Under the pieces are notes generated by a model. That model saw only the letters and a list, made by a program, of their open reading frames with translations, did no database searches and had not been told where the DNA came from. DNA of 27,604 nucleotides from positions 1 through 27,604 of the IMG/VR virus record IMGVR_UViG_3300025276_000171. One strand, written 5' to 3'. This DNA is from a virus. Below, piece by piece: positions 330-6,046 of the stretch. The translations under genes were made by a program, and so were the position numbers. Positions within the stretch are counted from its first letter, which is position 1, and every line of letters begins with the position of its first letter.

Positions 330-3029
330 TTAACTGAAGCAGTACTCACTGCTAAGGACACTAGAGACATCTAGTGATCCCTTAGGTGGAACCTTAGCCA
401 AATCCATGTCGGGATTAGCCAGGCGCGCCCTGCATTCCTTCTCGAAGTCAGACAGGACACAGGTGCCCTCGTAGATGTCGACCAAAGACGCCCTGATGCA
501 GTGGTAGAAACTCCAAGTATCAGCACCCAAGGTGCCAAATGAGTCATGGATCATAAAGAAGTCTTCTACACCGGCCTCAAGTCCCGATAGGATGGCTTGA
601 CACATGTGCCCGGAATCCAGTGAGTGAACCCAGTTTGCTGCTATAGACGACCTGCTTTTGCGTGTGTCAAAGACGTTAGTGTCTTGCTGTACATTGACCC
701 TGGTCTCCTTCAGGATCTTAGCTTCCCGGTCATACAGAAAGATCCGAGCTCTCTCCGCTTTGTCCTTGGTGTACCTGGCAACACATGGAAAGTCACTGGG
801 GCTCCTCCAGCGTACACTCTTGCCCTCTCTGGCCAGCGCATCAGCATAGCTCTGTAGGAACACCATGCCGTCTTTTACGCTCTCCAGGGTTTCACTGATG
901 ACAGAATAGTTGATTGACGCTAAGGACCGCGCATGATTGGCCTGAGACTTCTCGTCACCAAAGGGGTGATTAGACATCTCGTTGTAGTTTACCTGTTTCT
1001 GGAGGGGATGCATTAGGTCCTCAATGATCTGGTCACCCATCCCACGTTGTACCGAGTTGTAGCCAAAGGTCATGGTATTTCTCTTGACAGTCTTCCTTGT
1101 GATGCCCCAGTCCAGCCAAGCCTTTGCCTCAGGTGTGTCCTCAATCTTCAGGCGATCAGTGACGGCATCGGCGACGATCTGGTAGACATCCTGACACTGC
1201 TGGCTTGGGACTAAATTAACCATAGCAGCATCGTGTTGGTTCTTGAGGGCCAGTGCGTAGTGTTGTGTGCCACTGTTGGTTCCGTCCAAAGATATTGGCA
1301 GATGGCACACATAGTCTGGCCCCTCTGTCAGCATCTTTTGGTATTCCCAACAAGCAGCCAAGAACTGCATAGGCTTGTCTGCCTTAGTCCAGGTATCGTA
1401 GGTTGCCTGGTAGTCATTGGCACAGGCCAAGATCATCTCTTCGTTGTCCATGACCCACTGGATGCGGTCCTCCAAAGACTTTTTAGACACTTTGTCGAAG
1501 TCGCCTACGTTGGCCAATTGGATCATAAGCCAACCCTGGGCTGTTTCATCCAGTTTCTTACCCCTAGCAAACATGAAGGTGGCTTTGATGTGGTCATCTC
1601 TGTGGTATTGGTAATGACTGACCGGATACATGCGGCCCCTGAAATCAAAAGACCAACCAAGCCAGAACTGATCAAACGACGATAGGTAGTCTATAATCTT
1701 TAGATCTTCTTGGAGGACACAGACGTTGGTCACAGCCTCACGCTTCTTGGTATGCCACTGCTTTCGGTCCCTTCTGACCTGCCTAATGTATTCCTCAGAG
1801 TGCTCACTAGGGTTTTCGGGGTGTGGGGTTTGCTCTGGTGGATCTAGGTCAGGAAAACCTTCATATCGTTTACCTTCATCACGGACCCACTTGATGACCT
1901 CAACGACCTTAGTGTTGACCTTCAAAGGTGTCGCCTGGAGTGCGTTAATGGCTCTGATATAGTCCGGGATGCCCTTTAGGAAATCATGCTTCACAGCGCG
2001 TCTCTGCTCTGCTGTGGACTTCCTGACCAGGGGGGTAAGAGCACCTAAGATTTCGTCTTGGTAGACACCCGTGTCGAAGGATGTCCAAGGTTTAGGTGGT
2101 ACGACAAGTGGCATAAACATAGGAGATGCCCAGCTGTCACTAAAGGCCCTGTCTCTCACGGCAATCTCAGCAGTTGGGGTTAAGCTGATGTGTCTTCTGG
2201 TGTTGTGCTTAATGGCCCTGCCTGCCCACTCAGCGTTATTCTCAGTTGTGACCAAGAATATGTCACAGGCCTCTAGGATTGCGTTGATTATAGGTGAAGC
2301 AATCGAGGCCTTAGCTTTTGATGACCACTTGTCTTTGGTAAACCCAGCCGACTTGGCGATATGACGTACAGCCCTAAATCTGTAGGTTTCACTAGAGTGG
2401 TCCTTAGTCACCTGTTTGACCAGGCGAGTGTATAGGTCCTTGTCATAGAGCTTGAGCTCTTTAGCCCAACTTTCGTTCTCTACTCTAGAACCTATGCTGA
2501 CTAAAGTGGCACCGTAGGTAGATCCATTAATGACAGCATCATAACAACAGTTCAGACCTAAGTAGGCTAGGGTAAGGTGGTCCTGGTCCTTTAGTTCATC
2601 ATACCAGAACGACTTCTTACCCTGGCCACTTTTGAACCTGGTCTCGTCGTTTGAAATGTACTGTTTGATTACTTCAGCGACTTTGGGAAGTGCGTCTGCG
2701 ATTATAACGTGAGCGGCTTCCTGAGAACTGCCCTTTAGTTTTGCCTGTCTTGCCTCATATCGTTCATGACCCTTTTGGACCATCTGGGCCTCTAGGGCCT
2801 CTTGTTCTTCTAGTGTTGTCTTTCGCCCGTACCCATCAGAGGTACTTTTGTCGCGCTGGTTCTGAGTTTTGGTCGAATGAATTTCCGGTGGACCGTTTGG
2901 CTTATGACGCCAGCTTGTTACAGTCTGACCATAAAAGCCGCTGCTGTACTGCGATGATCCTTCTTGTGCATCATGTGATATGGTTGGCTTTAAGCCTATG
3001 CCCTTGGTGCCTCTGCTTTCTTCAGTCAT
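330..3029 (-). CDS. T7-type single-subunit DNA-directed RNA polymerase
   Basis: This 899-residue protein is close in length to T7 RNA polymerase (883). It would transcribe phage genes from phage-specific promoters in the host cytoplasm. The palm and fingers motifs are all present: DFRGRMYP near residue 462; motif A LDGTNSGTQH with catalytic Asp582 (T7 Asp537); the TRKTVKRNTMTFGY block with Lys649 and Tyr657 (T7 Lys631 and Tyr639); and IHDSFGT with His828 and Asp829 (T7 His811 and Asp812). The C terminus ends in an aromatic tail (YCFS) like the T7 FAFA end. About 100 N-terminal residues are polar and look less conserved. The ATG at 3029 has a GGGAG ribosome binding site about ten bases upstream. 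The 322-bp gap before it holds two promoter candidates. An integrase lies immediately upstream, as in integrase-bearing T7-like marine podoviruses. The gene looks intact. Confidence 0.98.
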   Translation of the reverse strand: MTEESRGTKGIGLKPTISHDAQEGSSQYSSGFYGQTVTSWRHKPNGPPEIHSTKTQNQRDKSTSDGYGRKTTLEEQEALEAQMVQKGHERYEARQAKLKGSSQEAAHVIIADALPKVAEVIKQYISNDETRFKSGQGKKSFWYDELKDQDHLTLAYLGLNCCYDAVINGSTYGATLVSIGSRVENESWAKELKLYDKDLYTRLVKQVTKDHSSETYRFRAVRHIAKSAGFTKDKWSSKAKASIASPIINAILEACDIFLVTTENNAEWAGRAIKHNTRRHISLTPTAEIAVRDRAFSDSWASPMFMPLVVPPKPWTSFDTGVYQDEILGALTPLVRKSTAEQRRAVKHDFLKGIPDYIRAINALQATPLKVNTKVVEVIKWVRDEGKRYEGFPDLDPPEQTPHPENPSEHSEEYIRQVRRDRKQWHTKKREAVTNVCVLQEDLKIIDYLSSFDQFWLGWSFDFRGRMYPVSHYQYHRDDHIKATFMFARGKKLDETAQGWLMIQLANVGDFDKVSKKSLEDRIQWVMDNEEMILACANDYQATYDTWTKADKPMQFLAACWEYQKMLTEGPDYVCHLPISLDGTNSGTQHYALALKNQHDAAMVNLVPSQQCQDVYQIVADAVTDRLKIEDTPEAKAWLDWGITRKTVKRNTMTFGYNSVQRGMGDQIIEDLMHPLQKQVNYNEMSNHPFGDEKSQANHARSLASINYSVISETLESVKDGMVFLQSYADALAREGKSVRWRSPSDFPCVARYTKDKAERARIFLYDREAKILKETRVNVQQDTNVFDTRKSRSSIAANWVHSLDSGHMCQAILSGLEAGVEDFFMIHDSFGTLGADTWSFYHCIRASLVDIYEGTCVLSDFEKECRARLANPDMDLAKVPPKGSLDVSSVLSSEYCFS

Positions 3030-3078: not shown

Positions 3079-3103
3079 GTTGTATCTAGAGGGGTCTCTT
3101 AGT
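3079..3103 (-). promoter_or_regulatory. Candidate phage RNA polymerase promoter, copy 2 (upstream of RNAP)
   Basis: On the minus strand this 25-bp element matches the element at 5452-5476 at 19 of 25 ungapped positions, sharing the block AAGAGACC followed by CT, TA and a terminal AAC. Its length equals that of T7-family promoters, and it lies 50 bases upstream of the polymerase ATG. The inverted repeat CTCTAG-N7-CTAGAG overlaps its downstream half and could be an operator or a hairpin near the transcript start. Function is inferred from recurrence and position only. Confidence 0.5.
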
Positions 3104-3351: not shown

Positions 3352-4236
3352 TCATGAAGAGTAGACCCGAGCCATGTTGTCGTTGATGTCTGCCGCCTTT
3401 TCGTAATCAATGTGGACGTATTTAGAAGTCGTCTTTGGGTCTCTGTGGCCCATGACCTCCATGACCATGAAGTGATTTACATTTAAGTCATTCACAAGCG
3501 CGCTACAGTATGTATGCCTGGTGGTGTGGAAACAAACCTGCTTGTCACCTTTGAACACAGTGCGGCGCATCTCCTCCAATTCTGCATAAAACTGCTTATG
3601 TAGCCAATAGCTATTAGGATCCATGTCCAGTACTTCTAAAGCATTGCGCGCGTCCTCGTTGATTGAAACCTTTCGGTCATCACCATTCTTCGTGTCCACC
3701 AGGTTGACATACAGGCGCCCCTTCTCGGTACTGAAGCTGTCCGGTTCAATCGACTTGATCTCACCCAGCCGCATGCCAGTGTTTAGCCCTATCGTAAAAT
3801 AGTGTCTCATCCAGCTGATGTCATCGCCGATGTAGGTGCCCCGGCACTTTCTGTACCTTTTTCGCAGCACTGAGTTGTCGAAGAACTTATAGATCTGACC
3901 AATCTCAGATGGTGTAAACGTCCGCACCCGTCCACTCTTGACTTTGTGGCACTTACCCAGCTTTGGTAATTGGTCACTGGCCAGGACACCATATTCCACT
4001 GCATGTGAGTAGAGGGCGCCCAGGGCAGCCTTGTAGTGATTGCATGTGTTCAATTTCAAGCCGCGCTCTTCTTGTAACCAGAAGTCAAAGTCGATGAAAT
4101 CCACCGCTTTCACTTGGTCTAGCTCCTGGTTGCCAGCAAAAGATATAAAGAGATTGATCTTGGCCCGGCTCTCAGACAAATGCTTATCTCGCCAGATCCG
4201 GTGGGCATGGGTGTTCAGGAAATCAGAGATCTTCAT
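3352..4236 (-). CDS. int: Tyrosine-family site-specific integrase
   Basis: This 294-residue tyrosine recombinase would catalyse recombination between attP and the bacterial attB. The N-terminal half (about residues 1-100) is a SAM-like core-binding domain. The catalytic domain carries the full set of residues: Arg156 in NTGMRLGEI, a candidate Lys183 in the beta-hairpin, His237 and Arg240 in HTTRHTY, His264 in MGHRD, and the nucleophile Tyr273 in SKYVHID. The gene looks intact. Its ATG at 4236 overlaps the stop of the HNH gene (ATGA) and has AAGGAGG upstream, so it is translationally coupled to it. A tRNA-derived attP core lies about 1.1 kb upstream. Its first 18 bases are identical to the first 18 bases of the HNH gene. 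Confidence 0.97.
   Translation of the reverse strand: MKISDFLNTHAHRIWRDKHLSESRAKINLFISFAGNQELDQVKAVDFIDFDFWLQEERGLKLNTCNHYKAALGALYSHAVEYGVLASDQLPKLGKCHKVKSGRVRTFTPSEIGQIYKFFDNSVLRKRYRKCRGTYIGDDISWMRHYFTIGLNTGMRLGEIKSIEPDSFSTEKGRLYVNLVDTKNGDDRKVSINEDARNALEVLDMDPNSYWLHKQFYAELEEMRRTVFKGDKQVCFHTTRHTYCSALVNDLNVNHFMVMEVMGHRDPKTTSKYVHIDYEKAADINDNMARVYSS
4219..4236 (-). repeat. 18-bp direct repeat, copy at the start of int
   Basis: ATGAAGATCTCTGATTTC forms the first six codons of the integrase (MKISDF) and is identical to the first six codons of the HNH gene at 5037-5054. A GGAGG plus CAGC block precedes the ATG in both copies with slightly different spacing. The two copies bracket the HNH gene. Confidence 0.95.
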
Positions 4237-5054
4237 GCTGCCACCTCCTTAGTCTGATTAAGGAAGTTACTGGCAAGGCTCCTGATAGACAGGAATTCTT
4301 CTAGGGATAGGTCAAATGAAAACTTAGTATATGCACCAGTCACGCATGTTGAGGTAGAAGCCCCTATATTGCGCCGAAAGCTGCCTTCTTTGTAAAACAT
4401 ACTGAAGAGACACCCAAAATCAGGTGATGGCCATGTTTTAGTGGCGTCTAATCTGGATTCTATACCGCACTCAGCCCAGAAACTTAGGGATATCTTTTTG
4501 GTTTTTATACTATGCCCAATTCTAAACCCTGTGTATTCTCCAGGTTTGCCACGCAATGAGTCTTGTCCATGTTTTTCTTCCACGAAGCCGTGTTTGATCA
4601 GGGCATCTACCAGTGAAACGTATCTTCCTAACTCTTCAAGACCACCAAGGAAGCGCCAGCCATTTCCTATTAGTATACAGGGGTCGTGAAACTTCTTTTG
4701 TATCTTTGGATTAAAGATTTCTTTTGTTTTCTTTAACTTAGAGACTTCATGGGTAGCAGCTGCTACCTTTGCTTCTATCCTCTGTACTTTACGGGCGGCT
4801 AGACTAAGTAATAACCCTTCATACATTTCTGGGAGCGGTGAAGCCGACTTCCTACGGTTGCACGAATGACATGACACACAGAGGTTTTCTAGTTCACAGG
4901 TCCCCCCCTTTGCGTGAGCAACTATATGATCTATTTCAAAGGTATCTACTGGCTTCTCACAGTAGGCACATCTGTTACCCCAAGCAGCTGCTATAGCTAA
5001 ACGCTCAGTCTGCGGGATAAACCGACGATTGCCGGTGAAATCAGAGATCTTCAT
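4233..5054 (-). CDS. HNH endonuclease, probable homing-type mobile gene
   Basis: This 273-residue protein begins at the ATG at 5054, preceded by GGAGG. An in-frame start 15 codons further upstream lies inside the preceding gene and is less likely. Residues 26-70 form a classic zinc-bound HNH domain: Cys29-x2-Cys32, the Asp42-His43 pair in EIDHIVAHAKGG, Asn57 in ENL, Cys62-x2-Cys65 followed by Asn66 and Lys69. His43 would be the general base. The remaining 200 residues have a basic helical stretch (about 75-120) and a lower-similarity C-terminal region, perhaps for DNA recognition; I do not recognise that part. Its first six residues (MKISDF) are the same as those of the integrase and are encoded by identical DNA. 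Its stop overlaps the integrase start. This suggests insertion directly in front of int without breaking it. Confidence 0.93.
   Translation of the reverse strand: MKISDFTGNRRFIPQTERLAIAAAWGNRCAYCEKPVDTFEIDHIVAHAKGGTCELENLCVSCHSCNRRKSASPLPEMYEGLLLSLAARKVQRIEAKVAAATHEVSKLKKTKEIFNPKIQKKFHDPCILIGNGWRFLGGLEELGRYVSLVDALIKHGFVEEKHGQDSLRGKPGEYTGFRIGHSIKTKKISLSFWAECGIESRLDATKTWPSPDFGCLFSMFYKEGSFRRNIGASTSTCVTGAYTKFSFDLSLEEFLSIRSLASNFLNQTKEVAA
5037..5054 (-). repeat. 18-bp direct repeat, copy at the start of the HNH gene
   Basis: This is identical to 4219-4236. The stop codon of the 78-residue upstream gene lies inside it (5041-5043). The same upstream frame, read at the int copy, also ends in the residues EDL and a stop, as if the end of the small gene had been duplicated together with the start of int. 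Confidence 0.95.
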
Positions 5055-5277
5055 TGTGCTGCCTCCGAGGTCCGGGCATTGACCGTCCACGCCAGTCAAA
5101 CCGATACCCCCCGACCATGGCCTGAGCTAGGTTAAGCAAAGCGTCTTCTTGGTTCTGGGAGCTTGCGGCACGGGCGAGATGCCCAACGCTACTGTAGAAG
5201 GCTGGGAGATTACCGGCGTCAATGTGACCCTGAGCAACCTGTAGTGCTTTCAATTGTACTTTTGTCATCTTTGTCAT
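5041..5277 (-). CDS. Small hypothetical protein, first gene of the integration operon
   Basis: This is a 78-residue protein that I do not recognise. The ATG at 5277 has GGAG seven bases upstream. It overlaps the HNH gene start by 14 bases. The first 55 residues look helical and alanine- and glutamine-rich, and the last 20 are basic (RFDWRGRSMPGPRR), which would suit nucleic-acid binding. It sits between attP and int, where an excisionase or directionality factor is often found, but no helix-turn-helix or winged-helix motif is clear, so that role is only a possibility. The end of this gene (residues NEDL and stop) is encoded by the 18-bp repeat shared with the start of int. Confidence 0.65.
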   Translation of the reverse strand: MTKMTKVQLKALQVAQGHIDAGNLPAFYSSVGHLARAASSQNQEDALLNLAQAMVGGYRFDWRGRSMPGPRRQHNEDL

Positions 5278-5329
5278 CTTCAGTCTCCAACTTTAAGTTA
5301 GGACCGATGGAATCCGATGATCGTTTGTG

Positions 5330-5392
5330 TGGTAGCGGTACAGGGACTTGAACCCCGGACACGCGGATTATGATTCCGCTGCTCTAACCAAC
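5330..5392 (-). other. attP: attP core: 3' fragment of a tRNA-Met(CAT)-like gene
   Basis: On the minus strand this 63-base segment reads as the last four-fifths of a tRNA: the D-loop end GTTGGTTAGAGC; an anticodon arm GCGGA-ATCATAA-TCCGC with anticodon CAT; a T arm CGGGG-TTCAAGT-CCCTG; the 3' acceptor strand TACCGCT; a discriminator A; and an encoded CCA. The 5' acceptor strand and the 5' D stem are missing, so it cannot be a working tRNA gene. Phages that integrate at tRNA genes carry exactly such a 3' piece, which rebuilds the host gene after recombination. The anticodon arm looks like an alphaproteobacterial elongator tRNA-Met. The exact crossover boundaries cannot be set without the host sequence. 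Confidence 0.85.
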
Positions 5393-5451
5393 GATTATTG
5401 GGTCATCGATCGTACCCCCCTTTTAGACAACGGACCCCAAAAGCACAAGAT

Positions 5452-5476
5452 GTTTTCTATATAGAGGTCTCTTGGT
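5452..5476 (-). promoter_or_regulatory. Candidate phage RNA polymerase promoter, copy 1 (upstream of attP and int operon)
   Basis: This 25-bp element shares 19 of 25 positions with 3079-3103. Its core on the minus strand is AAGAGACCTCTATATAG, loosely reminiscent of the GAC...TATAG pattern of T7 and SP6 promoters. It lies just after the terminator of the lysis operon and about 60 bases before the attP core, pointing at the 78-residue gene, HNH and int. The AT-rich TATATA could alternatively serve as a host -10 element, but no -35 at the right distance is evident. Confidence 0.5.
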
Positions 5477-5488
5477 ATTCCGAGGTTG

Positions 5489-5521
5489 AAAAAACACCGA
5501 TCACTTCCGATGTGACCGATG
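5489..5521 (-). terminator. Intrinsic terminator after the lysis genes
   Basis: In the minus-strand transcript, CAUCGGUCAC pairs with GUGAUCGGUG as a 10-bp stem with two G-U wobbles and a 7-base loop, followed directly by six U. It begins ten bases after the endolysin stop codon. This closes the late operon and insulates it from the integration region. Confidence 0.85.
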
Positions 5522-5530
5522 TTTCTAAAG

Positions 5531-6046
5531 TTAGACTTCTGCCATCTTGAGAGCAGCCATGCGTGTTTCTGCGTTGCGCCTGAGCCACCCACGGCCAAAA
5601 GTGTCGAAGGTCTTCAGTCGCCTGTAGAAGGCCTCACGCTCGGCTGTGTACTGCTCGATGATGACCGATGAATTCATCTTGGAAACTGCGCCCAATGTCT
5701 GACTACCAATTCCACCATCCTGTGTGACACCGGCGACCTTCTGGAGCATCTTAGCTCCCCTGCCCACACCACCGTTCACACAGAGATCAAAGACCGCGAA
5801 ATCAACGCCAGATTGTAGGTCATCACACCGCGCTCGATCCCAGTAGTTCTTCTTGTAGATGGGGGTAACATCAGCCACCGTAAGTGACTTCATCTCATCC
5901 TCAGTGATAGGACGATCCATCCAGTCCTCGTAGACAGCTTGGGTGACACCAAGGTTCGTGCGGCCACCGGGGTCGCTGGGGTGGTTCACATAGCCGCCTT
6001 CGTGGTGGAGGATCATCTTTAGTGATTTCTCAAAGTTATCTTTCAT
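5531..6046 (-). CDS. Endolysin, GH108-type lysozyme
   Basis: This 171-residue muramidase-type endolysin would cleave host peptidoglycan at lysis. The N terminus has the family signature HHEGGYVNHPSDPGG, with Glu16 as the expected catalytic acid, followed by TNLGVTQ. The YWDRARCD and VDFAVFDLCVNGG stretches fit the rest of the catalytic fold, and the C-terminal 60 residues match the peptidoglycan-binding part usual in this family. No signal peptide or membrane anchor is visible, so release would depend on a holin. The ATG at 6046 overlaps the stop of the 3TM holin gene (ATGA) and is likely translationally coupled to it. It is the last gene before the terminator. Confidence 0.95.
   Translation of the reverse strand: MKDNFEKSLKMILHHEGGYVNHPSDPGGRTNLGVTQAVYEDWMDRPITEDEMKSLTVADVTPIYKKNYWDRARCDDLQSGVDFAVFDLCVNGGVGRGAKMLQKVAGVTQDGGIGSQTLGAVSKMNSSVIIEQYTAEREAFYRRLKTFDTFGRGWLRRNAETRMAALKMAEV

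Follow-up and report, generated by a model that had tools for sequence, protein, structure and literature searches.

Gene Order and Features of the attP Region

The window analyzed here, a linear IMG/VR phage record of 27,604 bases, derives from an uncultured marine phage, and its minus strand carries a stretch leading from an endolysin gene to an RNA polymerase gene. Read along that strand, the endolysin gene is followed by a terminator, a 25-nt promoter-like element (phiA), a tRNA-like core, a 78-aa ORF, an HNH endonuclease gene, the integrase gene (int) and the RNA polymerase gene (RNAP). From the terminator onward this order had been described in a sequence-only reading of the window, and it was confirmed from the sequence. 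Two features were absent from that reading, namely a second element (phiB) before RNAP, and a sigma70-like pair between phiA and the core. The features are, by position in the window:

330-3029, minus strand: RNAP, T7-type single-subunit RNA polymerase (Pfam/PHROGs)
3079-3103, minus strand: phiB, second promoter-like element, 50 nt upstream of the RNAP start, 19/25 identical to phiA
3352-4236, minus strand: int, tyrosine integrase (Pfam/PHROGs)
4233-5054, minus strand: HNH endonuclease gene (Pfam/PHROGs)
5041-5277, minus strand: 78-aa ORF, the first gene past the core, kept in the nearest relatives; three-helix model, no DNA-binding fold recognized
5303-5320, minus strand: CATCGG repeats next to the core, on its int side, positioned by sequence
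5330-5392, minus strand: attP core, 63 nt identical to the 3′ part of tRNA-Met(CAT), CCA included
5420-5448, minus strand: weak sigma70-like pair, TTGTGC-17-TAAAAG, between phiA and the core (p ~0.5 alone)
5452-5476, minus strand: phiA, phage-type promoter-like element upstream of attP and reading towards int, defined by its copy at 3079-3103, by shuffles and by relatives
5489-5521, minus strand: intrinsic terminator after the endolysin gene; the stem holds ACATCGG repeats
5531-6046, minus strand: endolysin gene, GH108 (Pfam/PHROGs)

RNAP adjoins int as in Autographiviridae-like (T7-type) temperate phages, and the structural genes have no close kinship to T7-like phages: the major capsid protein is of SU10 type (Pfam, PHROGs), with best matches in uncultured or LUZ24-like phages, and the best isolate match of TerL is roseophage CRP-7, at 38.7%. 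The best isolate matches of RNAP and int reach only ~29% and ~25% identity, respectively. The phage belongs to an uncultured lineage, and its genes suggest a temperate podovirus group with a T7-type RNAP and an SU10-type capsid, the hosts of which are probably Planktomarina or close Roseobacter relatives. Scans of the window with ARAGORN and Rfam revealed no tRNA and no curated RNA; the sole weak Rfam match, mir-465, was below the gathering threshold, lies in the RNAP coding region and was rejected as a chance match.

Another contig, L002, comes from the same phage: it is 100% identical over 5.1 kb, and extends beyond the window end, where more similar elements directly follow RNAP. Positions 1-48 of the window, at the contig end, consist of four perfect copies of a 12-bp tandem unit, AATCTTGTACGT. 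Fewer copies are present in L002, followed by a terminator and by SSB, endonuclease and primase-helicase genes, and the window end is therefore probably an assembly break. Apart from the identical L002, no relative has a match to the HNH gene, the start region of which repeats that of int (87% over 30 nt, 4219-4248 versus 5037-5066); on both grounds the gene is likely to be a recent insertion between the 78-aa ORF and int.

Promoter-Like Elements, Terminator and Repeats

A search of both strands of the window found a single near copy of phiA, which is phiB, on the same strand. A match of 19/25 was reached by 2 of 300 shuffles of the window, and by none of 5000 shuffles of the gap between int and RNAP. 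The position and repetition of the two elements fit promoters of the phage's own polymerase, as far as sequence can indicate.

The terminator upstream of phiA forms a strong hairpin (-18.4 kcal/mol, z -5.2) followed by T6, and a GATCGGTGTTTTTT terminator is common to the leaders of relatives. Further CATCGG repeats occur inside its stem (5507-5522), so that the core is flanked by both sets. The repeats at 5303-5320 and 5507-5522 are possible arm sites of the integrase; if so, recombination and termination would be coupled.

The leaders of most relatives contain TTG and, ~17 nt further on, TAT, at a fixed place between the element and the core. The pair is stronger in relatives, several of which have TATACT at the same position. 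Scores for single sequences are weak (p from <0.01 to 0.6), with the pair of the window among the weakest, and it is regarded only as a conserved candidate promoter beside the core. A simple scan of the window found no sigma70-like promoter between the core and the 78-aa ORF.

The Core and the Host tRNA Gene

The core is non-coding and precedes the 78-aa ORF. When the 60-nt tRNA part was compared with one genome per species (84,980 species), exact matches were found in two genomes only, both Planktomarina MAGs, and both within complete tRNA-Met(CAT) genes. With the flanks aligned, identity covers exactly 63 nt, 5330-5392, and ends on both sides, in agreement with the limits first assigned to the core. 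In both Planktomarina genomes another integrase gene was observed ~110 nt behind the same tRNA-Met (L015 4193-5071, L016 3619-5211); it is intact in L016 and shorter in L015. The Planktomarina tRNA-Met gene is thus an occupied integration hotspot. Integration into tRNA-Met(CAT) has been demonstrated for the cultured RCA roseobacter phage CRP-3, whose core lies at the tRNA 3′ end (PMC6918029), and the site was therefore already known for this host group. CRP-3 is otherwise an HMO-2011-type phage with a different genome, in which no T7-type RNAP is annotated in the 12 kb around int. No prophage of the window phage was found in the Planktomarina or Rhodobacteraceae genomes searched.

Conservation of the Layout among Relatives

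The central 23 nt of the tRNA-Met fragment are contained in 104 IMG/VR contigs, among which no tRNA-Met-type attR was recognized. Besides the window, 32 loci match in core, int and RNAP, and the three are codirectional in 32/32. Together with the window, these loci form 19 groups at 90% identity, 18 with a free attP and one integrated. In 10 of the 18 free groups, the core is preceded at 82-106 nt by an element of the ACTAAGRGACCCC class on the coding strand; a further 6/18 carry an element of differing sequence (three of them recognized by resemblance only), and none was found upstream of the core in the remaining 2/18. RNAP is immediately preceded by a phiB copy in each of the 13 groups of the ACTAAGRGACCCC class, the integrated locus included, and most groups of this class whose contig reaches far enough also have a copy after RNAP. 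The position weight matrix used to score the elements was trained on the very sequences scored, and its scores are therefore descriptive.

The same order, with another promoter sequence, was found in 11 distant phages (L003-L013), the integrases of which are ~31% identical; several of these contigs nearly duplicate one another and do not count as independent. They contain a terminator, the motif TGTCCACCC[AT]TATACA (exact in all), a core corresponding to the 5′ half of tRNA-Tyr/Phe, and int. In near-complete contigs, GTCCACCCNT occurs four times, always on the int strand: one copy precedes the core, one lies on each side of RNAP, and one is late. Since their core is a tRNA 5′ half on the strand opposite to int, the attachment site has been replaced in these phages and the surrounding leader kept.

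Integrated Relatives

Integrated junctions are known from relatives with 28-38% integrase identity. The contig L069 carries a complete tRNA-Met, a 71-aa ORF, int, a copy of the element (phiB) and RNAP, all in one direction. Over its first 104 nt, which include the DNA before the tRNA, it matches a Rhodobacteraceae genome (G189) without a difference, and divergence starts one base after CCA. L069 is a natural host-phage junction.

The second example is a prophage in genome G618, which is 77% identical to the window in TerL, 61% in portal, 57% in MCP and 55% in endolysin, and whose core is a tRNA 5′ half rather than a 3′ half. It is bounded by 50-bp direct repeats (the 5′ part of tRNA-Lys) 39,868 bp apart, which define a 39.9-kb prophage. 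Its int is at the prophage end that adjoins the upstream, host-promoter side. The phage leader lies at the opposite end, pointing outward and reading through a complete tRNA-Lys. No promoter element was recognizable in the G618 leader, and its sigma70-like matches are weak. Three CCACGACTGCCAACCTA repeats precede RNAP (G618:C1:423093-423382), and CCACGACTGCCAACCTA may represent a third class of promoter sequence in the same phage family. Single copies of CCACGACTGCCAACCTA were also observed after RNAP and 13 kb further on. Given the absence of phiA from the G618 phage, as well as from two of the 18 free groups, phiA is not essential to the family.

The sequence-only reading had predicted that crossover in the core would bring the host tRNA and its promoter in front of a codirectional int and RNAP, and would leave the promoter-side leader at the far prophage end, facing outward. 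The first arrangement was seen in both L069 and G618, where int lies on the host-promoter side, and the second in the G618 prophage. The further proposal, that integration rewires transcription of the int-RNAP operon, was borne out in its topology and in the exchange of the leader of int, but not for RNAP, which keeps phiB. That the operon as a whole loses its phage promoter is ruled out: the element stays with RNAP in the layout of the window, in the integrated L069, and in G618, there as three copies. A terminator-like stem with a T-run after the core was found in none of the window, L069 and G618; L069 has one T-run after the core, without a stable stem.

Search for a Repressor

Pfam, PHROGs and a fold comparison of the 78-aa ORF revealed no recognizable repressor for the window phage, and to that extent the earlier statement that no repressor gene is visible holds. 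The 78-aa ORF was rejected as a candidate, with a low-confidence three-helix model, no family match and no significant fold match. No MarR-like gene was recognized in the int region of the window. A winged helix-turn-helix (MarR-like) frame between int and RNAP was read from the translations of three relatives (L058, L079 and L098), and other members of the family may therefore use a MarR-like regulator.

Comparison with Known Systems

Circularization of ICEclc in Pseudomonas brings the promoter Pcirc upstream of int. The intB13 transcript was assigned to this outward-facing promoter (Table 1 of PMC2892462; PMC9286271). The window resembles ICEclc, judged by position, in having a promoter element across att from int that faces int in the free form only, and separation of this kind upon integration was seen in L069 and G618. 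ICEclc differs in being an integrative element rather than a phage, with a constitutive host-type promoter and no phage polymerase behind int, whereas the element of the window is a putative RNAP-dependent promoter. In KplE1 intS and the 'STI' elements, int also lies downstream of a tRNA in the same direction, with a leader overlapping attL (PMC2951348). The KplE1 int promoter, however, is on the int side, inside attL, whereas the recognizable elements of the window lie across the core.

In BPs-like mycobacteriophages, location of attP in the repressor gene couples integration to immunity (PMC4557955). The window phage may be analogous, in that the position of attP would make integration change a regulatory outcome; in BPs, however, attP truncates the repressor gene, whereas the core of the window is non-coding and no repressor was recognized. 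The T7-like phage LUZ100 encodes an integrase, accompanied by a MarR-like gene, and has a phage promoter immediately before RNAP (PMC10134795). It shares with the window phage the position of int, ahead of a T7-type RNAP, and a phage promoter (putative in the window) that immediately precedes RNAP. They differ in that LUZ100 int is co-transcribed with the MarR-like gene from a host promoter, in that RNAP identity is ~28%, and in the SU10-type capsid module of the window. As S-TIP37 shows, integration of a T7-like phage need not result in stable lysogeny (PMC8776855), a precedent that calls for caution with the window phage too. The tRNA-then-int arrangement and a promoter across att from int were thus already known; what is new here is a variant of this layout with a T7-type polymerase.

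Proposed Control Module and Alternatives

The best overall explanation, to which a probability of about 0.65 is assigned, is that phiA, the core, int, phiB and RNAP form an attP control module in which promoters are exchanged upon integration. Since the core lies between the phage promoter and int, insertion swaps the promoter upstream of int for the host tRNA gene; since RNAP keeps its own copy, the swap mainly concerns int and the leader genes. Both elements would be recognized by the phage RNAP. In the free form, phiA, perhaps with the weak host-type promoter beside it, would drive the leader ORFs and int. In the prophage, this supply would be cut, and int and low-level RNAP would rely on read-through from the tRNA promoter or on an unseen promoter. 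RNAP, once made, would still amplify itself from phiB, so that integration alone would not silence it. From the layout we infer that integration may act as a 'switch' of expression.

The evidence is about evenly balanced on whether this is ordinary tRNA-integration geometry devoid of regulatory meaning, with the element as just one of several phage promoters, the first past the late terminator. Tyrosine integrases that use tRNA 3′ ends usually come to lie behind the tRNA and codirectional with it, and tRNA followed by a codirectional int is the commonest tRNA-linked class (736 of 1273 tRNA-int pairs; PMC2951348). The arrangement itself is not special; its features were found here, in that the core of the window is part of a host tRNA and int lies behind the restored tRNA in L069. 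The integrase behind the same tRNA-Met in the Planktomarina MAGs, and the retention of an element by RNAP, agree with such a view. What it leaves unaccounted for is that an element is kept between terminator and core, near the core, in 16/18 groups and in the 11 distant phages, and this position may plausibly be under selection.

It is doubtful that int is autoregulated at attL in the manner of KplE1 intS, with the integrase binding arm sites over its own promoter and the promoter exchange being incidental. CATCGG repeats do flank the core and overlap the terminator stem, and tRNA-then-int elements are predicted to be autoregulated, as was shown for several (PMC2951348). However, the arm sites are putative, and in the window the simple scan of the interval between core and 78-aa ORF yielded no sigma70-like promoter. 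Similar doubt attaches to the proposal that the host tRNA, rather than int, is what the host-type promoter next to the core transcribes, in a leader inherited from ancestors with 5′-half cores. Phages with such cores must supply a promoter for the restored tRNA, and in the G618 prophage the phage leader is immediately followed by a complete tRNA-Lys; however, the sigma70-like matches of that leader are weak, the tRNA half points the opposite way in the 11 distant phages, and with tRNA-Met 3′-end cores the host promoter stays with the tRNA, as in L069. Finally, it is unlikely that integration is an outright off-switch in repressor-less phages, moving both phage-type and host-type leader promoters away from int and RNAP; int and the first rounds of RNAP would be left on weak tRNA read-through, and lysogeny would therefore be stable until stray RNAP fired phiB, with excision reconnecting the leader.

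The control module favored above bears on the question of how a self-amplifying T7-type RNAP is kept quiet in temperate phages that lack a recognized repressor. The layout of promoter, attP, int, promoter and RNAP is common to many marine phages, for which natural integrated cases exist, and repressor-independent, position-based control thereby becomes testable in cultivable Roseobacter or SAR116 hosts.
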